Positions 17,598 through 59,599 of a stretch of 64,000 bases of DNA are shown here, piece by piece (the stretch's first letter is position 1; every line of letters starts with the position of its first letter). Position numbers and translations under genes: made by a program. The stretch is from positions 3,135,001-3,199,000 of the forward strand of contig NKIZ01000001.1 in the NCBI GenBank assembly GCA_002256425.1, given 5' to 3'. This DNA comes from Alphaproteobacteria bacterium PA2 (GTDB lineage: Bacteria > Pseudomonadota > Alphaproteobacteria > Caulobacterales > Caulobacteraceae). Below the pieces are notes generated by a model that worked only from the letters and a program-made list of their open reading frames with translations, did no database searches and was not told where the DNA came from.

Positions 17598-19490
17598 CTA
17601 GTAGCGCGTGACGACCCCAAGGGCCCTGGGTGTCGGCGTGGTCGCCACCCCTTTGGACCGCTTCAGGACCCAGTCGATCAGGGTGTTGGCGACGGCGGAG
17701 TTGCCGGCATCCCCTGGCCGTCCCTTGTCCGGGGTCGAATCATCGGCCGAGACAAAGTCGGTATGGCGCAGGATGGCTACGTTGATCTTCGGGTCGAAGG
17801 GGGTCACCGCCCTTGCGGCTTCAGTCTGCCAGGTCCCGGTCTTGTTGATCTCGGTATAGTCGCTGACCCCCGGGAAGGGATTGCCGCCGGTCCCCTGGGT
17901 GAAGCCCTGGCGCGCCACATAGACCGGGACATTGGCGATGGCGCTCTTGTCCAGATCCAGCTTCACGCCGTCACGATCGACTTTCAGCACCTTGTAGCGG
18001 CCGACAAAGTTGGCGTCATAATCCCACCGCTCGGAAGCGTACCAGTTGGACGCCACCATGTCCGAGGCGTCGATGACCCGCTCGCCCGATTGGCTGAACA
18101 CCACCTTCACCGGACGGATATTGGACCTTGCAGGCGCGAAGCCCTGGCTCTCCATCCAGAGCTTCGCCTTGCCCCCGTCAATGGACGATCCGCCGTTTCC
18201 ACCGCCCTCGACCCAGTCATAGACCTTGTTCGGATCGACCATGGCGGCCGATGGCGCGCACTTTGGCGGCGGCGGCGCCATGGCCCGCATGGGGCCAGCC
18301 ATGGGCGCAGGTGGCGTCAGGTCGCACTTGTCCTCGGTTCCGGGGACCGGCTTGAAATCCAGATAGCCCATGCCCTGCCCCAGAAACTGCAGGACCGGCA
18401 TCTGGACGCCGCCGCCAGGCACCGGATCGGTGTCAAAGCTGGTTCCGGCCCGGGCCAGCCAGGTGGTGCGGATGGCCTTCAGGAATCCGCTTCCGGGCAT
18501 GTCAGGCATGCCCTGGACCCGCAGGGGAAAGATGGACTCCGCCTTGGGGTCGACAAAGGCATAATAGATCCCCGTCACCGACTGGCTGACCGCCGCATTG
18601 GGGCCGGCCACGGCGCCCAGCAAGCCAGAGGCGTCGGTATAGACCGGGACCTTGCCGGTCCGCAGATCCTTCACATGGGCGAAATAGCCGTCCAGATCAG
18701 CAGCCGTTGGCGCAGGCTGGTTTCCGGCCGAGGGTCCACCGTCCAGAAACACGAGGCCGGCCAGTTTGGAGACAGCCCGCTTGCCGTCGGCCTGCTGCCG
18801 GGCCGCATAGTTGGAGACAAAGCCGCCGCCCTGACTGTGTCCGGCCAGGAAGATGTTGCGATTGCCGGTCTTCTGGGAAATCAGGCCGATGATCTGATCA
18901 ACATCGCCGGCATAGGTCTGGAAGTCCCAGTCGGCCATGAAGCTGAGGTCGTTCGGGGTCAGGGCCTTCCATTTGGCCATCTCGGTGGCGGTTCCCACCT
19001 GGCCGGGGGCGCCCTGAATCGTCGAGGGCCTCTGGGCGTCGGGGCCGAGGTAATAGTCCAGGGCGACCTTGGGATCGCGGGCCTTGCGGGCCGCGGTCAG
19101 GGCTGTGGTCTCCGCCAGATTGGCGCCGCGCCTTTGCAGGACCCAGACCTCGACCCGGCATGGCTTGCCCTCACAGTCGCGGGCCTGCGCCTTGTGGACC
19201 AGCTGGCTGGCCAGGAAGAGCCAGTGGGCAGGGGTGGATGAGAATCCGGGAAGGCCGACAATGACCGCATTGGCGGCCTTGGGGGCGTCGCCATCCGCAG
19301 CAGCCCGCAGACGCAGGAAGGTGGCGGTGTTCAGGCCCTTTGGCGTACTGGGGGCGGCATATCCAGGGATCTGGATGTATTCCGCGGTGACGTCGGAATA
19401 GCCGGGCACGAGGCTCTTGGAATAATCCGCAGCCAGAGCCGGTGTCGCGATGGCGAGACTGCCCGCCAGGGCCAGAGCCTTAAGAGACAT
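17598..19490 (-). CDS. Large secreted alpha/beta hydrolase
   Basis: A 630-residue exported protein. The signal peptide is about residues 1-21 (LALAGSLAIATPALA). The hydrolase fold is shown by AVIVGLPGFSSTP, VWVLQRRGANL (oxyanion side) and the nucleophile elbow NIFLAGHSQGGGFVSNYA, with Ser in GHSQG. A Pro/Met-rich low-complexity patch (PMAGPMRAMAPPPP) interrupts the C-terminal half. The late His in VAILRHTDFVSADD is a candidate catalytic base. It is larger than most lipases, and the region after about residue 330 is not recognised. The substrate may be an ester or acylated polymer. GGAGG precedes the start. Confidence 0.75.
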   Translation of the reverse strand: MSLKALALAGSLAIATPALAADYSKSLVPGYSDVTAEYIQIPGYAAPSTPKGLNTATFLRLRAAADGDAPKAANAVIVGLPGFSSTPAHWLFLASQLVHKAQARDCEGKPCRVEVWVLQRRGANLAETTALTAARKARDPKVALDYYLGPDAQRPSTIQGAPGQVGTATEMAKWKALTPNDLSFMADWDFQTYAGDVDQIIGLISQKTGNRNIFLAGHSQGGGFVSNYAARQQADGKRAVSKLAGLVFLDGGPSAGNQPAPTAADLDGYFAHVKDLRTGKVPVYTDASGLLGAVAGPNAAVSQSVTGIYYAFVDPKAESIFPLRVQGMPDMPGSGFLKAIRTTWLARAGTSFDTDPVPGGGVQMPVLQFLGQGMGYLDFKPVPGTEDKCDLTPPAPMAGPMRAMAPPPPKCAPSAAMVDPNKVYDWVEGGGNGGSSIDGGKAKLWMESQGFAPARSNIRPVKVVFSQSGERVIDASDMVASNWYASERWDYDANFVGRYKVLKVDRDGVKLDLDKSAIANVPVYVARQGFTQGTGGNPFPGVSDYTEINKTGTWQTEAARAVTPFDPKINVAILRHTDFVSADDSTPDKGRPGDAGNSAVANTLIDWVLKRSKGVATTPTPRALGVVTRY

Positions 19491-19596
19491 GGACAATCCT
19501 CCCACACATCGCGCCCGATGCAGGGCGCTGATCCTGGCCGGACTATAGCCAACCGCCTGGGAAGTTCGCGGGAAAAATCTCCGCCGCGCGCCGGGA

Positions 19597-33600: not shown

Positions 33601-33854
33601 TGGGGGACTTTCAGTTCGACGCCCTGTCGTTGTTTGGCCTGGCTTCGGTGTCGTCGAGCCTGCTCTGCTATGTGATGGAGCCCCGCAGCAACTGGTGGAC
33701 CCTGGGCTTCATGGCCGCAAACCTGGCCTCGGCGCTCTACGGTTTCCTGCAGGGCGCCTGGCCGTTTGGTCTGATCGAACTGTTCTGGGCAGGGGCCGCC
33801 TTCGCCAGGTGGCGAAAGACGGGACTCAGTGGCGGAACACCCGCACCCCAGTGA
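33600..33854 (+). CDS. Small membrane protein, CBU_0592-like
   Basis: An 84-residue protein with about three hydrophobic helices. The segment [25 protein letters not shown] resembles the small CBU_0592-like membrane proteins of unknown function. It starts on the last base of the M16 stop (TAATG), which indicates translational coupling. Its 3' end runs 29 bp into the convergent purH gene. The family name is from memory and is moderately sure. Confidence 0.65.
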
Positions 33855-35439
33855 AGGCCATGGTCACGCCGGCCTCGTCTGCGGCGGCGATGACCTCGGC
33901 GTCGCGGATGGAGCCGCCGGGCTGGATCACCGCCGTAGCCCCCGCTTCGGCTGCCTGGATCAGGCCATCGGCGAAGGGGAAGAAGGCTTCGGACGCACAG
34001 GCTGATCCCTTGGCCAGGCTGACCGGAAGACCGGCGGTCTCTGCGGCCTCGCCGGCCCGGATGGCGGCGATGCGAGCTGAATCCCGGCGGTTCATCTGGC
34101 CAGCGCCAATGCCTGCGGTCTGGCCGTCCTTTGCGAAGACGATGGCGTTGGACTTCACATGCTTGGCCACAGTGAAGGCGAACAGCATATCGGCGACTTC
34201 TGACGGCGTCGGCTGACGCTTGGTGACAATCTTCAGGTCCGCCGCGGTCAGATGCGAGGCGTCACGGCTCTGGACCAGGAAACCTCCGGCCACCTGCTTG
34301 AAGACGTCGCCGGCCGAGCGGGGGTCCGGCAGGCCGCCGGTCAGCAGAAGGCGCAGGTCCTTCTTCCTGGCGAACAGGGCGATGGCTTCCTCGTCGGCCT
34401 CGGGGGCGACCACAACCTCGGTGAAGATCTTGATCATCTCCCGGGCGGCGGCGGCGTCGAGGCGCGTGTTGACGGCGACAATCCCGCCAAAGGCCGAGAC
34501 CGGGTCACACTGCAGGGCGCGTTCATAGGCGGTCTTGAGATCAGACCCCAGGGCGACGCCGCACGGATTGGCGTGCTTGATGATGGCCACAGCCGGCGCC
34601 GTCTTCGGATCAAACTCGGCGATCAGTTCGATGGCGGCGTCTGTGTCGGCGATATTGTTATAGCTCAGCGCCTTGCCCTGCAGCTGGCGGGCGGTGGCGA
34701 CGCCAGTGCGCGGATTTTCCTCGCGGTAGAAGGCGGCGGACTGATGGGGGTTTTCCCCATAGCGCATGGTCTGGACCAGGGTCCCCGCAAAGGCCCGGCG
34801 GCGCGGCGCGACATCGCAGATCGCCTGGGCGAACCAGGCGGAAATGGCGGCGTCATAGGAAGCCGTGCGGGCATAGGCCCGGGCAGCCAGCTGTTTGCGC
34901 AGGGCAATGCCGGTGGTTCCCGACGTCTCAAGCTCGGCGATCACTTCCTGCAGGTCTGCCAGCTCGGTGCACACTGCGACATAGCCGTGATTCTTGGCCG
35001 CAGACCGGATCATGGCCGGCCCGCCGATATCGATATTCTCCACCGCCGTTTCGAAGTCGGCGCCGGCTGCGATGGTGGCCTCAAATGGATAGAGATTGAC
35101 GTAGACCAGATCGATGCCGCCGATCCCGTGGTCAGCCATGGCCTGGGCATGCTCCGGCGCATCACGGACCGCCAGCAGGCCGCCATGCACGATGGGGTGC
35201 AGGGTCTTCACCCGGCCATCCATCATTTCCGGAAACCGGGTCAGGTCCGATATGTCCCGCACCTCAAGGCCTGCAGCAGCAATGGCCGCCCGGGTTCCGC
35301 CTGTGGAAACCAGCTCGACGCCTGCCTTGGCCAGGGCGCGGGCGGCGTCGATCAGGCCGGTCTTGTCAGAGACGGAAATCAGCGCCCGCTTGATGGGCGC
35401 GCGGTCGGCTGGCTTGGGGAAATCGGGTGCGGCGGGCAT
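33826..35439 (-). CDS. purH: PurH, AICAR transformylase/IMP cyclohydrolase
   Basis: A 537-residue bifunctional enzyme for the last two steps of IMP synthesis. The N-terminal cyclohydrolase has [24 protein letters not shown] and [17 protein letters not shown]. The transformylase has [26 protein letters not shown] and [13 protein letters not shown] with the catalytic Lys and His. The C-terminus holds the conserved block [22 protein letters not shown] lies 6 bp before the ATG. A ZTP riboswitch occupies its leader, which fits control by its own substrate analogue. Confidence 0.97.
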
Positions 35440-35469
35440 GGCGTTCTCCTGACGGGATCAAAGAAGAAG

Positions 35470-35547
35470 TGCCCAGGCGAGCGGCGTCTATGGCCCGCCT
35501 GCTCCCCGGTGGTCGCCCACCTTCATCGCCAGTCACACGCGGTCGAT
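35470..35547 (-). ncRNA. ZTP/ZMP riboswitch in the purH leader
   Basis: The minus-strand RNA carries the two conserved halves of the pfl (ZTP) motif. The 5' half has GUGACUGGCGA, then GGUGG and CCACC closing a GCGA tetraloop, then GGGGAGC. The 3' half has CCGCUCGCCUGGGCA, which forms the pseudoknot side. Known ZTP riboswitches sense the AICAR phosphates ZMP and ZTP and turn on folate and purine genes. Here the 3' edge is about 20 nt from the AGGAG of purH and no T-rich terminator is visible, so translational control looks more likely. Confidence 0.9.
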
Positions 35548-52631: not shown

Positions 52632-55600
52632 CTAGAACTGCTTCTTGATGCCAACCTTGATCACCCGGCCGAGCGGGTTACCGTTGGTTACATCGTAGTT
52701 GTAGAAGCTCTGGGCGAAGGGCGGATCAGCATCCAGCAGGTTCTGGACGCTGAGGGTGCCCTTGGAGTCCAGCGGCAGGTCGACGCTGAGGGTCACGTCC
52801 GACTGCCAGAAGTCTTCCAGCTTGCCGACGCTCTCATAGACACCGCTGGAGTAGTTGTAGCGGCAGTCAGCCGTCGCACCGGCGCTGGCGTCGCCAAGGC
52901 AGACCGGACCAGCCAGGGTGGTGCCTTCACGATAGAGCAGCTGATAACGCAGGTTCCAGTTGGAGCCGGCGACGTTCACGAAGCCGTTCGCACGGACCTT
53001 GGGGAAGGAATAGAATTCCCCGGTGAGGTCGTGCTTGCCGGCGCGGTCGATCGCAGGCGCGATGATCACGGACGGATCTTCCAGCAGGGTCGTGGCGGTC
53101 CGGTTGTATTCCTTCAGCAGGGTCGCTTCACCGCCAACCGAAACCCGGGTGTCGTGGAAGTCGAAGCCAAAGAAGTTGTCCCAGTCATACTGAGCCCGCA
53201 GGTCGTAACCCGAGGTCTTGGTATTCTGACCGTTCACGATCTTGATGGTTTCCACCAGAACGTTGGCCTGCGAGCAGGCGCCGACGAAGACAAACCGGGC
53301 TGCGAAGGCCGGCTTGGCGCAGTTCGCCGCGTTGATGGCGGCATAGAGCTGGCTGGCGTCTTCGGTGATCAGTTCCTTGCGGAAGTCGAAGGTCCAGTAG
53401 TCAACCGAGGCCGAGAAACCGCCATAGTTGACCAGGACGCCGAAGTTGCCGGTCTTGGCAGTTTCCGGTTCCAGACCCGGATTGTTCTGGGTCACGGCTG
53501 CGCGGTACTGGCCGCCCAGCTGACGAACGCCCTTGGTGCTGCCAGGGGTAAGAGCCGCCTGACCGGGAGCCCGGAAGGTGGTGCCGCCCGAAGCGCGGAA
53601 GGCCAGCCAGTCCAGAGCCTGCCAGCGAGCCGACAGACGGGGATTGGTGGTGGTTCCGACCCGGCCGCCGAAGTCTTCGTGACGGAGAGCGGCGCTGACC
53701 TCGAGGTTGTCGAGGATGGGCAGCTTCAGTTCGCCGAAGACGGCGCCGACGCGGCGGTCGACATCATAGTCGCCCTGGGCGCCGAAGAAGACGAAGGGTC
53801 CGGTCGGGTCCGTGCACTTGCCTTGCTGGCCATCGATGGAGTCAACGCACGGGGTCGCCTGAACGTCGCCGAGGTCGGACCAGTCATCGATATTGCGCTC
53901 GAAACGCCACTGGGCGCCGGCCGCCCAGCCGATATTGCCGCCGGGAAGGGCGATCTTGGATTCACCGCTGATCACCGCGTCAGCCACCAGGATCTGGTTG
54001 GTGCGGACGTTGGTGTAGGTGCCGTAGAGCCAGTTCTTCATCTGCGGGTCATTGGCCACAGACGCGACATAGAACGGGTTGGTAGCGCCCGTGATCGCGC
54101 TGGCGGCGATGCCGTTGGAGAAGGGGTTCAGCCACTTGCAGTTACCAACGCCGGGGGTGCCGGTCCGGTAATCGCAGCCGGGGCCGCCAAGGCCGTTGAA
54201 GGCGCGCTGGATGCGGTTCACCAGCAGGTCATTGGTGGTCACAATGCCCTGGTTTTCCATGAAGGTCAGGGCGGTGTCCCACTTGACGCCGTCGAGCATG
54301 CCGCCGTCGAACTTGCCGTGCAGCCCGCCGGAAATCCGGTACTGGGTCTGCTCGATGTCCTGGTGGTCAGCGCCGTCGGAATTCAGCGGGTGGCCTTCAA
54401 CACCGATCAGACGCCAGGAAGCCTGGCTGGTGGTGACGCCGGCCGCCATGGCGGCGCACTGGGCGGCCGTCAGAGGGGCTGCGCAGTTGGTGCGCAGGGC
54501 GATCAGGCCAGGATTGGTGGCCGGGATGAAGTAACGCGACTGGCCATTGAAGCCAGCGGCCACCGAGGCGCCCGAGGTGCCGCCATTGATGGTCGGGGTC
54601 GGGAACTGGGTGGTCAGGTTGGCCGGCGAAATACGCTGATCCGGAACGGCATTGCGGTTCCAGGCCACTTCGCCGTGGAAGCCGATATTGTCAGACAGGT
54701 CGAAGTTCAGTTCCGAATAGAGCTGATAGTGATGCTCTTCGTTCACCAGGTCGTTGAAGTGGGTGAACTGATAGCGGCACAGGGCCGCATTGCCGGCTGC
54801 CGTGGTGGTCGGCTTGAGACCGCCCGTCAGGAGCTGGGAGCCCAGTTCGTTACAGCCATTGTCCCGGAAGAGGGTGGCGCCGGTCGCCGTACCATAGGTT
54901 CCGGGGCTCGCAGAGCCGGACCAGCCGCCGTAGAAAACGGATTCGAAAGGCACCCGGGCGAAGTCACGGTCGTCAACAGCCAGGCGGCCGCGGTCGCGGA
55001 GACCGGCGGTGATCAGGAAGTTGCCGTTATCGAACTGGTGGCCATAGGCGAGGCTGGCGTCCCAGTCTCCGCTGGAGTCCTGGATGAAGCCGTAGTTGGC
55101 GTTGAACTCGAAGCCGTTCAGGTCCTTGCGGGTGATGAAGTTCACCACGCCGGCGACGGCGTCAGAGCCGTAGGTCGCGGCGGCGCCGTCCTTGAGGATT
55201 TCGATACGGCCGATGGCCGCGGTGGGCATGAAGTTCAGGTCCGCGCCGCCGCCCTGGAAGGCTGCAGCCGTGGTGTCGGCCAGACGACGGCCGTTCATGA
55301 GGACCAGGGTGCGCGAGGAACCCAGACCACGAAGATTGATGGAGGCCGTGCCGGCGCCGCCGTTGTAGCGGTTGCTTTCGCCGAGCGAAGACTGGGCTGC
55401 GGTAAGGGTCTTCACCAGCTGGACGACGCTGGGCGCGCCCTGCTTGGCCAGTTCCTGCTGGCCGAAGACGTCAACCGGCTGAGCCGCTTTTTCAGAAGAA
55501 CCGGCGATGAATGAGCCGGTGACGACAACCTCGGATACGGTTGCGTCCGCCGCCTTGTCGTCAGCCGCAAGTGCTTGGCTGCTGAGGCCCATGGCGAGCA

Positions 55601-55646
55601 CGACGGCGAGAACAGACCCGCCGCACAGGAAATTGCTTTTAGACAT
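52632..55646 (-). CDS. TonB-dependent outer-membrane receptor
   Basis: A 1004-residue receptor with a signal peptide (about 1-27, ending SSQALA). A TonB-box-like segment is SEVVVTGSFIAG. The plug (about 50-175) has PSVVQLVKTL and LRGLGSSRTLVLMNGRRLA and closes with LKDGAAATYGSDAVAGVVNF. The beta-barrel ends with the aromatic C-terminus VGIKKQF. Such large receptors of Caulobacteraceae often import sugars, metals or phosphorus compounds; the ligand is unknown here. The upstream Pho box suggests phosphate-starvation induction. A strong terminator makes it monocistronic. Confidence 0.94.
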   Translation of the reverse strand: MSKSNFLCGGSVLAVVLAMGLSSQALAADDKAADATVSEVVVTGSFIAGSSEKAAQPVDVFGQQELAKQGAPSVVQLVKTLTAAQSSLGESNRYNGGAGTASINLRGLGSSRTLVLMNGRRLADTTAAAFQGGGADLNFMPTAAIGRIEILKDGAAATYGSDAVAGVVNFITRKDLNGFEFNANYGFIQDSSGDWDASLAYGHQFDNGNFLITAGLRDRGRLAVDDRDFARVPFESVFYGGWSGSASPGTYGTATGATLFRDNGCNELGSQLLTGGLKPTTTAAGNAALCRYQFTHFNDLVNEEHHYQLYSELNFDLSDNIGFHGEVAWNRNAVPDQRISPANLTTQFPTPTINGGTSGASVAAGFNGQSRYFIPATNPGLIALRTNCAAPLTAAQCAAMAAGVTTSQASWRLIGVEGHPLNSDGADHQDIEQTQYRISGGLHGKFDGGMLDGVKWDTALTFMENQGIVTTNDLLVNRIQRAFNGLGGPGCDYRTGTPGVGNCKWLNPFSNGIAASAITGATNPFYVASVANDPQMKNWLYGTYTNVRTNQILVADAVISGESKIALPGGNIGWAAGAQWRFERNIDDWSDLGDVQATPCVDSIDGQQGKCTDPTGPFVFFGAQGDYDVDRRVGAVFGELKLPILDNLEVSAALRHEDFGGRVGTTTNPRLSARWQALDWLAFRASGGTTFRAPGQAALTPGSTKGVRQLGGQYRAAVTQNNPGLEPETAKTGNFGVLVNYGGFSASVDYWTFDFRKELITEDASQLYAAINAANCAKPAFAARFVFVGACSQANVLVETIKIVNGQNTKTSGYDLRAQYDWDNFFGFDFHDTRVSVGGEATLLKEYNRTATTLLEDPSVIIAPAIDRAGKHDLTGEFYSFPKVRANGFVNVAGSNWNLRYQLLYREGTTLAGPVCLGDASAGATADCRYNYSSGVYESVGKLEDFWQSDVTLSVDLPLDSKGTLSVQNLLDADPPFAQSFYNYDVTNGNPLGRVIKVGIKKQF

Positions 55647-55754
55647 AAAATCCTCCCCTCAAGGGTCCGCTGTCATCCACTGAACTGGGAGGTCGGCCAC
55701 TTGATCAGGTACAACAGAACCCGAGAACCACGCTTCGCGCAAGGTCCCGCCGCA

Positions 55755-56503: not shown

Positions 56504-57424
56504 ATGAATGTCATGAGTGCTGGCCCCCAGACTGAAAAACCGCTGGAAATGGCGCTGGCGCATCCGGGCCCCTTGCACAGTGTGCACTATGCTCAGGCTG
56601 GCTCGATCGATCCACCGACCCCTCTTGTCTTCTGCTCGCCGCACTCCGGCCGGATCTATCCCGATGACATGGGCGCCCATCTCTCGGGACTGGATATCCG
56701 TCGGTCAGAGGACGCCTTCGTCGACCGGCTGATGGACTCCGCCCCTGGCCATGGCGCAGCTCTGATCACAGCCCTGGCCGCCCGCGCCTATCTGGACGTC
56801 AACCGCCATGCCTATGAACTTGACCCCGGCATGTTTGATCAGCCCCTGCCCGCCTTTGTCCGCGAACATTCGCCCAGGGTGGCGGCCGGGCTTGGGGCCG
56901 TGGCGCGCCTGATCTCGGAAGGCCTGGAGATCTATGCGCGGAAGCTGACCTTCGCAGAGGCCCAGGCCCGGATTGATCAGGTGCATACGCCGTATCACGA
57001 CGCCCTGTCCGGACTGATCACGCGGGCGAAAAGCGTCCATGGTTTCGCCATCCTGCTGGACTGGCACTCCATGCCTGCAGCGGCTGGACGACTGGCCAGC
57101 GCGGCCGACCCTGTAGATATTGTCCTGGGCGATCGCTTTGGCGCCTCATGCCACCCGGCGCTCACGACCCGCGTCGAGGGTCAACTTGCTGGCCTGGGTT
57201 ACCGGGTTGCGCGGAATATCCCCTATGCCGGCGGCTATACCACCGAACACTACGGACAGCCGCACAACAGGGTTCATGCCCTGCAGATCGAAATCAGCCG
57301 CGCCCTTTATCTGGACGAAACCTGTCTGAAACTCACCGAGGGGTTTGGGCGCCTGAAGGCCGATCTGGACCGGCTTTCGCAAAGCCTGGCTGCCGAGGAC
57401 TGGAAATCCGTGGGCCTCGCCTGA
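56504..57424 (+). CDS. N-formylglutamate amidohydrolase
   Basis: A 306-residue amidohydrolase of the HutG/N-formylglutamate deformylase family. Family blocks are LVFCSPHSGRIYPDD, LDVNRHAYELDPGMF, ILLDWHSMPAAAG with the catalytic DxH, NIPYAGGYTTEHYG and ALQIEISRALYLDE. It could take part in histidine breakdown, though no hut gene is nearby. It sits next to cpdR as in Caulobacter relatives. A second ATG at 56513 is an alternative start. Confidence 0.92.
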   Translation: MNVMSAGPQTEKPLEMALAHPGPLHSVHYAQAGSIDPPTPLVFCSPHSGRIYPDDMGAHLSGLDIRRSEDAFVDRLMDSAPGHGAALITALAARAYLDVNRHAYELDPGMFDQPLPAFVREHSPRVAAGLGAVARLISEGLEIYARKLTFAEAQARIDQVHTPYHDALSGLITRAKSVHGFAILLDWHSMPAAAGRLASAADPVDIVLGDRFGASCHPALTTRVEGQLAGLGYRVARNIPYAGGYTTEHYGQPHNRVHALQIEISRALYLDETCLKLTEGFGRLKADLDRLSQSLAAEDWKSVGLA

Positions 57425-57441
57425 AGCCAGGCATAGGGCAC

Positions 57442-57524
57442 AAAAAAAAGCCGCGCCCGAGGACGCGGCAGTTCATTAGGGAGGAAACGCCCAGGAAGGG
57501 CAGAGGCATCAGCGACGCCTCACG
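57442..57524 (-). ncRNA. Candidate small RNA upstream of typA
   Basis: A minus-strand unit of about 83 nt is framed by a good promoter and a strong terminator. The RNA would start near 57524. Hairpin 1 pairs GAGGC with GCCUC, and hairpin 2 pairs GCCC with GGGC around UUCCU. A single-stranded UUUCCUCCCU follows. The terminator pairs GCCGCG with CGCGGC and ends in eight U. The CCUCCC stretch resembles the anti-Shine-Dalgarno motifs of known alphaproteobacterial trans-acting sRNAs. No reading frame of note lies in it. Confidence 0.75.
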
Positions 57525-57529
57525 AGGAC

Positions 57530-57559
57530 ATAATTAGAGTGCACTGCACAAAAGTTCAA
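57530..57559 (-). promoter_or_regulatory. Promoter of the candidate sRNA
   Basis: The minus strand has TTGAAC, exactly 17 bp, then TAATTA, a good housekeeping-sigma -35/-10 pair. The predicted start is about 6-7 nt further, at about 57524. Confidence 0.7.
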
Positions 57560-57766
57560 GGGTTAATTTCCTGATTGGATGAATTTGTTGCCGTAAATCG
57601 CGCCTTTCCGGGATAATCCATGGCGCGCGGGGCATGGGTCAGGTATGAACGTGCGCCGCATCGCACAAGTCCGTAAGGGAAAATGCGTCATCTGCGGCGA
57701 GAAGTCGCTGGCTTAACCCCGCAGGCTCAACTAACAAGCGCGCGCCCTTCAAAAGATAAGAAATCC

Positions 57767-59599
57767 ATGTCCCTCCGCAACATCGCCATCATCGCACACG
57801 TCGACCATGGCAAAACCACCCTGGTGGATCAGCTCCTCGCCCAGTCCGGCGTCTTCCGCGCCAATGAGGCGACGGTCGAGCGCGCCATGGACTCCAACGA
57901 CCAGGAGCGGGAGCGGGGGATCACCATTCTCGCCAAGTGCACCAGTGTTCTGTGGAACGGTGAAGCCGGCGAAACCCGGATCAACATCATCGACACCCCT
58001 GGCCACGCCGACTTCGGCGGCGAGGTGGAACGGATCCTCGGCATGGTGGACGGTTGCGTCCTGCTGGTGGACGCCGAAGAGGGCGTCATGCCCCAGACCA
58101 AGTTCGTTCTGGGCAAGGCGCTCAAGATGGGCCTCCGCCCCATTCTCTGCCTCAACAAGGTCGACCGGGCCCACGCCGACCCCGACCGGGTCCTCAACGA
58201 CGCCTTCGACCTGTTCGCCGCCATGGGCGCAACAGACGAGCAGCTGGACTTCCCGCACATCTATGCCTCGGGCAAGAATGGCTGGGCGACCCTGGACATG
58301 GACAAGCCCAACGACACCCTGGCGCCCCTGTTTGATCTGATCGTCCGCCACGTGCCTGAGCCCAAGGCCATCGTCCGCAGGGACGAACCCTTCCAGATCC
58401 TGTCGGTTCTCATCGAGAACGACCCCTTCCTGGGCCGCCTGCTCACCGGTCGCATTGAATCCGGCAAGGCTGTCCCCGGCCTGGCCATCAGGGCCCTGTC
58501 CTATGACGGCAAGGAAGTCGAACGCGGCCGCATCACCAAGGTCCTGGCCTTCCGCGGCCTGAAGCGTCAGCCCATCGAAGACGCCGAAGCTGGCGACATC
58601 GTCGCCATCGCCGGCCTGAGCAAGGCCACCGTGGCCGACACGCTGTGCGCCATGGAAGTCACCGAGGCCCTGCCGGCCCAGCCGATCGACCCGCCGACCA
58701 TTTCCATGACCGTATCGGTCAATGACAGCCCCCTGGCCGGCCGCGAAGGCGACAAGGTCCAGAGCCGGGTCATCCGTGACCGTCTTCTGAAGGAAGCCCA
58801 GTCCAACGTCGCCATCCGGGTGACGGAAACTGCCGACAAGGACGCTTATGAAGTGGCCGGCCGCGGCGAACTCCAGCTGGGCGTGCTGATCGAAGGCATG
58901 CGCCGCGAAGGCTTCGAGCTCTCCATCAGCCGCCCCCGGGTGGTCTTCCAGACCGATCCAGAGACCGGCGCCCGCCTGGAGCCCATCGAGGACGTCATGA
59001 TCGACGTGGACGATGAGTTCAGCGGCATCGTCATCGAAAAGCTGTCAGCCCGTAAGGCGGAACTGAAGGACATGGGCCCGTCGGGCGCGGGCAAGACCCG
59101 GATCAGCCTGATGTCTCCCTCGCGGTCTCTGATCGGTTACCAGGGCGAATTCCTCACCGACACCCGCGGCTCGGGCGTGCTCAACCGGGTGTTCAGCCAT
59201 TACGAACCCTATAAGGGCGCCATCGACGCCGGCCGTAAGGGCGTTCTGGTCTCCAATTCTGATGGTGAGACAGCGGCCTACGCCCTCTGGAACCTTGAAG
59301 ACCGCGGAACCATGTTCGTTGGCGGCGGCGAGAAGACCTATCAGGGCATGATCATTGGCGAGAATTCCCGCCAGGATGACCTCGACGTCAATCCAATGAA
59401 GGCCAAGCAGCTGACCAACGTCCGCGCTTCGGGCAAGGACGAAGCTGTCCGCCTGACCCCGCCCCGCCGGATGACCCTGGAACAGGCCATCGCCTATATC
59501 GAAGAAGACGAACTGGTCGAGGTTACGCCCAAGTCGATCCGCCTTCGCAAGCAGGTGCTGAACCCCAGCTTCCGCAAGCGTCGCGTCAAGGAAGAATAG
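57767..59599 (+). CDS. typA: TypA/BipA ribosome-associated GTPase
   Basis: A 610-residue translational GTPase. The G domain has IIAHVDHGKTTLVDQLL (P loop), the switch I block RERGITILAKC, IDTPGHADFGGEVER (G3) and LCLNKVDRAHADPD (G4). The C-terminal domain typical of BipA includes GVLNRVFSHYEPYKG and NPMKAKQLTNVRASGKDEAV. It helps ribosome assembly and stress adaptation. I chose the ATG at 57767 because MSLRNIAIIAHVDHGK is the family N-terminus; an upstream in-frame start at 57683 adds 28 non-conserved residues. Confidence 0.97.
   Translation: MSLRNIAIIAHVDHGKTTLVDQLLAQSGVFRANEATVERAMDSNDQERERGITILAKCTSVLWNGEAGETRINIIDTPGHADFGGEVERILGMVDGCVLLVDAEEGVMPQTKFVLGKALKMGLRPILCLNKVDRAHADPDRVLNDAFDLFAAMGATDEQLDFPHIYASGKNGWATLDMDKPNDTLAPLFDLIVRHVPEPKAIVRRDEPFQILSVLIENDPFLGRLLTGRIESGKAVPGLAIRALSYDGKEVERGRITKVLAFRGLKRQPIEDAEAGDIVAIAGLSKATVADTLCAMEVTEALPAQPIDPPTISMTVSVNDSPLAGREGDKVQSRVIRDRLLKEAQSNVAIRVTETADKDAYEVAGRGELQLGVLIEGMRREGFELSISRPRVVFQTDPETGARLEPIEDVMIDVDDEFSGIVIEKLSARKAELKDMGPSGAGKTRISLMSPSRSLIGYQGEFLTDTRGSGVLNRVFSHYEPYKGAIDAGRKGVLVSNSDGETAAYALWNLEDRGTMFVGGGEKTYQGMIIGENSRQDDLDVNPMKAKQLTNVRASGKDEAVRLTPPRRMTLEQAIAYIEEDELVEVTPKSIRLRKQVLNPSFRKRRVKEE

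Follow-up and report, generated by a model that had tools for sequence, protein, structure and literature searches.

A SisA/MmgR-type small RNA gene upstream of typA with a putative PhaR operator in its promoter

The window (the whole stretch of 64,000 nucleotides that was analysed) very probably carries, on the minus strand between the genes for N-formylglutamate amidohydrolase (FGase) and TypA, an alpha-r8 (RF00519) sRNA gene, the counterpart of SisA of Caulobacter and MmgR of Sinorhizobium, whose RNA would act by anti-Shine-Dalgarno pairing, mostly on mRNAs for uptake and catabolism. As an ordinary and well-conserved representative of a family already described, the sRNA is not in itself a new finding; the part worth following is the conserved PhaR-type palindrome that lies in the spacer between the promoter elements. 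The first-pass annotation of this DNA, which had proposed a candidate sRNA gene at this position, overlooked the known family, the FGase neighbour as a clue to it and the palindrome. The features of the locus are collected in Table 1.

Table 1. Features of the sRNA locus, its neighbours and one predicted target site
Feature	Coordinates	Strand	Remarks
sRNA gene, SisA/MmgR (alpha-r8) type	57442..57523	-	82 nt; RF00519 match, 5' end inferred
Hairpin 1 (5')	57503..57521	-	fold and covariation
Hairpin 2 (GCCC-UUCCU-GGGC)	57488..57502	-	fold
Anti-Shine-Dalgarno 10-mer UUUCCUCCCU	57478..57487	-	unpaired in the predicted fold, hence single-stranded
Terminator stem-loop	57450..57469	-	followed by eight T, 57449-57442
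-35 element TTGAAC	57554..57559	-	conserved part TTG
-10 element TAATTA	57531..57536	-	separated from -35 by a 17-nt spacer
Palindrome TTGTGCAGTGCAC, putative PhaR (AniA) operator	57539..57551	-	within the -35/-10 spacer
FGase gene, convergent neighbour	56504..57424	+	PF05013, 231.6 bits
typA/bipA, divergent neighbour	57767..59599	+	BipA_C and GTP_EFTU
Predicted target site GGGAGGA	55651..55657	-	Shine-Dalgarno of the TonB-dependent receptor gene 52632-55646

The transcription unit and its family

The promoter TTGAAC-N17-TAATTA, the structured RNA of about 83 nt and the terminator with eight T, all proposed earlier from the sequence, were found on the minus strand as described (Table 1). The transcript would be 82 nt long with G57523 as its 5' end, a position suggested by analogy with SisA, in whose published numbering the footprint covers G33-C45 and C40 belongs to the seed (PMC12559287); this numbering places the start of the 10-mer at nt 37 and hence the 5' end here at G57523. 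The 84 nt from 57525 to 57442 have a folding energy of -37.9 kcal/mol (z = -4.9), which was equalled by none of 200 shuffled sequences. The spacer in which the unit lies, from the FGase stop at 57424 to the typA ATG at 57767, is 342 bp long as stated in the first-pass annotation, but the description 'otherwise empty' was loose, the typA leader being inside it as well. The output of a generic promoter scan did not include the sRNA promoter, and the single terminator-like site in the stretch, versus 1.1 on average in shuffles, carries no significance by itself, so the case for the unit rests on comparison.

The RF00519 model (suhB, described as mmgR; alpha-r8) matched positions 57435-57508 of the minus strand over its whole length (1-77) at 54.8 bits, the gathering score being 41 (E = 1.6e-8 over the whole window), and this was the single match above the cut-off in a genome-wide profile search of the own genome. 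A covariance-model search across related genomes had been put forward in the first-pass annotation as a check on the sRNA; with RF00519 it gave a match in 99 of 101 genus genomes, over the cut-off in 98, with up to six matches per genome, and among 289 class genomes a match in 159, over the cut-off in 126 (own genome counted in both samples). The alpha-r8 features present here are the single-stranded UUUCCUCCCU following a hairpin, the Rho-independent terminator and the adjoining FGase gene. SorX and the other Rfam matches to the sRNA stretch were rejected, every one of them being under its own cut-off. L002 was rejected as a second sRNA, since it scored 29 bits, under the cut-off, and has no 10-mer. 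The other two places of TTTCCTCCCT in the genome (L138 and L139) were also dismissed as sRNAs: they lie on the sense strand of long frames which resemble, by eye, nuoH and a thiolase gene and to which no family search gave a name.

The closest known systems are SisA and MmgR. SisA of C. crescentus is reported to have the same 10-mer, preceding hairpin, terminator and FGase neighbour, but C. crescentus has four siblings, SisA-D, versus the one copy over the cut-off in the own genome, and SisA-D are reported to have no promoter motif in common (PMC12559287). The copy of C. vibrioides OR37 (L102), scored at 59.3 bits, lies upstream of typA and has a loose palindrome at -61. MmgR of S. meliloti shares the Rfam family, the terminator and a PhaR-type palindrome in the promoter; it differs in being reported to limit the accumulation of PHB and phasins (PMC12542648, PMC9049629), whereas the own phasin leader has, by eye, no more than a weak match to the 10-mer. 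Separately, rows of three alpha-r8 copies, about 230-290 bp apart and each with a loose palindrome upstream, were observed among the class genomes (at L160, L163 and L166).

Conservation and linkage to typA

Loci with an FGase gene were compared using the best 80 of 106, a sample that therefore leans towards close relatives; the nearest matches are often labelled Phenylobacterium and others Caulobacter. The exact 10-mer was found at 63 of the 80 loci, in one copy each and on the same strand as in the window; its distance from the FGase stop is at most 300 bp at 48 of the 63. It was absent from the fetched stretches of 17 loci, 16 of which also lack typA there, and three of these 16 stretches reach no further than about 320 bp from the FGase stop. 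L034, also among the 17, has a one-base variant of the 10-mer upstream of typA. The sRNA was located directly upstream of typA at all 62 loci with a typA start found (at L034 by its variant), the 10-mer being 234-408 bp upstream of that start (61 loci). In L033, the closest relative, 82 of 82 sRNA positions are identical to those of the window, compared with 36 of 37 in the promoter and 166 of 206 in the remaining spacer. The linkage provides a stable landmark, directly upstream of typA, that separates the SisA orthologue from its siblings.

Such tight linkage might also be taken to mean that the RNA acts chiefly in cis on its neighbours, tuning typA or serving as an antisense RNA to the FGase mRNA, and is not a trans regulator. 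This is very improbable: the sRNA overlaps neither gene, its 10-mer has complements in Shine-Dalgarno regions elsewhere, and SisA is reported to work in trans, in E. coli included (PMC12559287).

In another reading, the terminator alone would be functional, as the 3' end of the convergent FGase gene, and the remainder of the unit would have arisen by chance. The stem-loop does lie 25 bp beyond the FGase stop, but a T run follows it on the minus strand and not on the plus strand. Moreover, the unit keeps to typA even at loci where the FGase gene is 1.6-3.2 kb distant. Conservation confined to the terminator, the outcome which the first-pass annotation had named as refuting the unit, was not observed either: hairpin 1, the 10-mer and the promoter are all conserved. 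Terminator function alone is thus hardly credible as an explanation and is already contradicted.

The predicted fold of the window's own sequence was used as the test structure in a covariation analysis of 47 of 64 sequences (46 distinct rows), for which 14 rows duplicating others were omitted and the short-form loci L037, L038 and L048 were set aside. Overall, 97.0 % of the cells were paired. Pairs changed on both sides numbered 11 versus 4.8 in shuffles and double-change cells 71 versus 20.5, with none of 500 shuffles as high. In hairpin 1, 96.4 % of the cells were paired and three of eight pairs had changes on both sides; the corresponding values for the outer stem of the terminator were 97.5 % and seven of seven pairs. 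Since four of the five pairs of hairpin 2 are invariant, covariation is silent on this hairpin, neither for nor against it. The covariation of the stems supports the fold predicted for the sRNA. Together with the RF00519 match, the spread in the genus and the analogy with SisA, it also supports the earlier proposal of an sRNA that acts in trans through an exposed anti-Shine-Dalgarno sequence.

The promoters of 61 loci (the window and 60 others) were aligned on the palindrome; none was excluded for lack of it, and the three short-form loci were again set aside. The TTG of the -35 element stands at a single fixed place in 60 of the 61, and the first T and A of the -10 element are identical in all 61, with a spacer of 17 nt. 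The conservation of TTGAAC and TAATTA between genomes, which had been suggested as a further check, is thus seen for the TTG of the former and the TA of the latter.

The short form of the sRNA is also found upstream of typA, at L037 (7812-7885, minus strand; an RF00519 match of 51.7 bits) and, on the minus strand at their 10-mers, at L038 and L048. Hairpin 1 is apparently missing from it, because the palindrome lies at -36/-37 from the 10-mer and not at about -60. In the window, a 23-aa frame (MNVRRIAQVRKGKCVICGEKSLA) was noted ahead of typA at 57645-57716 of the plus strand; by eye it has a counterpart in L033 alone among the 62 loci compared.

The promoter palindrome and PhaR

The palindrome YGCRNYGCR of the PhaR regulon is present in the sRNA promoter, with the core TGCAGTGCA at 57540-57548 of the minus strand. 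This pattern (loose motif) and TGCRNYGCA (strict motif) were counted up to 120 nt upstream of the 10-mer. At the FGase loci the loose motif was found in 63 of 63 sRNA promoters, versus 9.35 % of 3731 control stretches, and the strict motif in 49 of 63 versus 0.64 %. The control windows are mostly coding DNA, so Markov sequences matched to the promoters in composition were added, of which 12.3 % had the loose and 2.3 % the strict motif. By chance alone the loose motif is frequent (8-16 % of controls). In many Caulobacter loci the palindrome starts with CGC and is consequently less symmetrical; the C is present in 23 % of the 61 aligned promoters.

Beyond the FGase loci, genus and class samples were drawn with 30 loci each from the best matches, not at random. 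Genus copies chosen by Rfam score had the loose palindrome in 21 of 30 cases (Markov 11.4 %), and nine copies (L003, L012, L017, L026 and L028-L032) had not even the loose form. In the class sample the loose motif was present in 31 of 35 (in one solely at -119) and the strict one in 23 of 35, versus 44 loose and 2 strict in 556 control windows and 15.9 % and 3.7 %, respectively, in Markov sequences. As a separate observation, six of the nine palindrome-free genus copies have, by eye, an ACATA element in common.

PhaR is encoded once in the own genome (PF07879; TIGR01848, 154.8 bits versus a cut-off of 109.45). Its presence did not discriminate between the sRNAs, since 30 of the 30 class genomes examined had it, also where the sRNA has no palindrome. 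The 9-base core TGCAGTGCA occurs at ten places in the 3.47-Mb genome versus five for the backward pattern, and four of the ten lie upstream of phaR, the phasin gene, phaZ and the sRNA gene, a count made partly after the fact because the sites at the PHB genes had been noticed before the core was counted. The phaZ gene was identified by TIGR01849 (629 bits) and the phasin gene by PF09361, with TIGR01841 above and TIGR01985 below the cut-off. In the phasin promoter two palindromes flank TTGACT, an arrangement also reported for S. meliloti phaP1 and phaP2 (PMC12542648). TGCRNYGCA alone is not specific, being present at 229 places in the genome. Among the other six places of the core, those at L209-L211 are inside long frames and those at L204 and L208 have no long frame over them. 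The copy at L206 (about 1501-1509; GTATTGCAGTGCAGCATG) falls within a long frame, close to its beginning, and may mark a further PhaR target.

PhaR sites have been described as TGCRNYGCASMA in Bradyrhizobium (PMC6201568) and as NYGCRNYGCRN in S. meliloti (PMC12542648). The site in the window fits TGCRNYGCA and NYGCRNYGCRN; of the full TGCRNYGCASMA, it agrees with the S but not with the last two letters. That AniA/PhaR represses mmgR in S. meliloti has already been published (Ceizel Borella 2018), and PhaR is reported to shift the S. meliloti mmgR promoter, a shift abolished by changes in the palindrome (PMC12542648). The PhaR reading of the present promoter is therefore an extension of what is known for Sinorhizobium. 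The abstract of the Ceizel Borella work of 2018 is said to mention, in addition, that the promoters of PHB genes in other alphaproteobacteria contain a dyad TGC-N3-GCA, a statement which would lower the novelty of the PhaR part further. The main text of the SisA paper (PMC12559287) contains no occurrence of PhaR, and no PhaR control of SisA in Caulobacterales was seen among the open-access papers listed, judged by titles and the openings of abstracts. The palindrome thus adds PhaR as a candidate transcriptional input for SisA.

The palindrome could instead serve another regulator, for example a nitrogen-responsive one, or the core promoter itself, in front of an alpha-r8 trans-acting sRNA gene that stands outside PhaR control. 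A heptamer in the -35/-10 spacer, TTGTGCA, is reportedly linked to nitrogen control, and the window has exactly this sequence, though just 17 of the 61 promoters do. S. meliloti mmgR has been reported as NtrC-dependent (a title cited in PMC12542648), and SisA is described as nearly constitutive (PMC12559287), which was counted against PhaR control. Against such a regulator stand the identical core upstream of the own phaR, phasin and phaZ genes, the fit of the site to the published PhaR motifs and the palindrome-dependent shift of the mmgR promoter, so that this explanation appears possible but rather unlikely.

PhaR control is, on these sequence comparisons, the probable explanation. PhaR would occupy the palindrome in the -35/-10 spacer and so keep the sRNA gene repressed for as long as it is not drawn off by PHB granules, and the sRNA would be switched on when the carbon store is full. 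A wider proposal is favoured by a small margin of confidence: in Caulobacteraceae, and probably in much of the class, the typA-side alpha-r8 sRNA may belong directly to the PhaR regulon, freed by PHB granules to shut off the translation of nutrient receptors and of peripheral catabolic enzymes. If the former is right, carbon storage is joined to the feast-famine switch in relatives of Caulobacter. If the latter is true, the fullness of the carbon store feeds back on uptake through an sRNA that Caulobacter antagonises with CrfA in starvation, and sRNA copies would split by input signal, since some siblings have no operator. As to the CrfA question, AGGGAGGAAA, the exact complement, occurs in the genome only at the three TTTCCTCCCT places.

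Predicted action on mRNAs

SisA (alphaR8, beside the FGase gene) of C. crescentus is reported to repress mRNAs through pairing of the 10-mer just upstream of the start codon; the pairing was confirmed by matched changes in the sRNA and a TonB receptor leader, and repression was seen with eight of ten reporters (PMC12559287). Pairing and repression, demonstrated for SisA, are carried over here by analogy. The transcript would run from 57523 to the intrinsic terminator at 57442 and display UUUCCUCCCU between hairpin 2 and the terminator. On Hfq, for which the gene is present in the own genome, the 10-mer would pair with purine-rich Shine-Dalgarno regions and block translation, with uptake and catabolic genes, such as those for TonB receptors, as the main predicted targets.

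Duplexes with the 10-mer were scanned for 52 frames of the window, taken as long, non-overlapping frames and not as verified genes. The strongest, at -14.9 kcal/mol, was formed by the leader of the TonB-dependent receptor gene (product assigned by Pfam), the site of which is the genome match 3190644-3190657; the runner-up was a hydrolase-like frame at 17598-19505 (-14.2 kcal/mol). GGGAGGA followed by ATG after 3-9 bases occurs 55 times in the genome versus 13 times for the backward pattern, a difference that does not show targeting by the sRNA, because the control reflects any Shine-Dalgarno signal. Thirty of the 55 matches were fetched; seven of their frames are shorter than 60 aa, L175, L179, L196 and L197 (frames of 76-179 aa) were left out, and 19 were scanned by Pfam. 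These 19 include two further TonB-receptor plug domains, an MFS transporter, an AMP-binding enzyme, an aldehyde dehydrogenase, dioxygenase-type proteins, a P450 fragment, a ferredoxin, a dienelactone hydrolase and an alkylsulfatase-type protein. By reading of the Pfam names, most of them appear to concern uptake or catabolism; the exceptions include a histidine kinase, CinA and DUF2189.

Elsewhere in the window, a ZMP/ZTP riboswitch (RF01750, 60.1 bits) was found at 35464-35546 of the minus strand, directly ahead of a frame (33826-35439) which by eye is purH-like.
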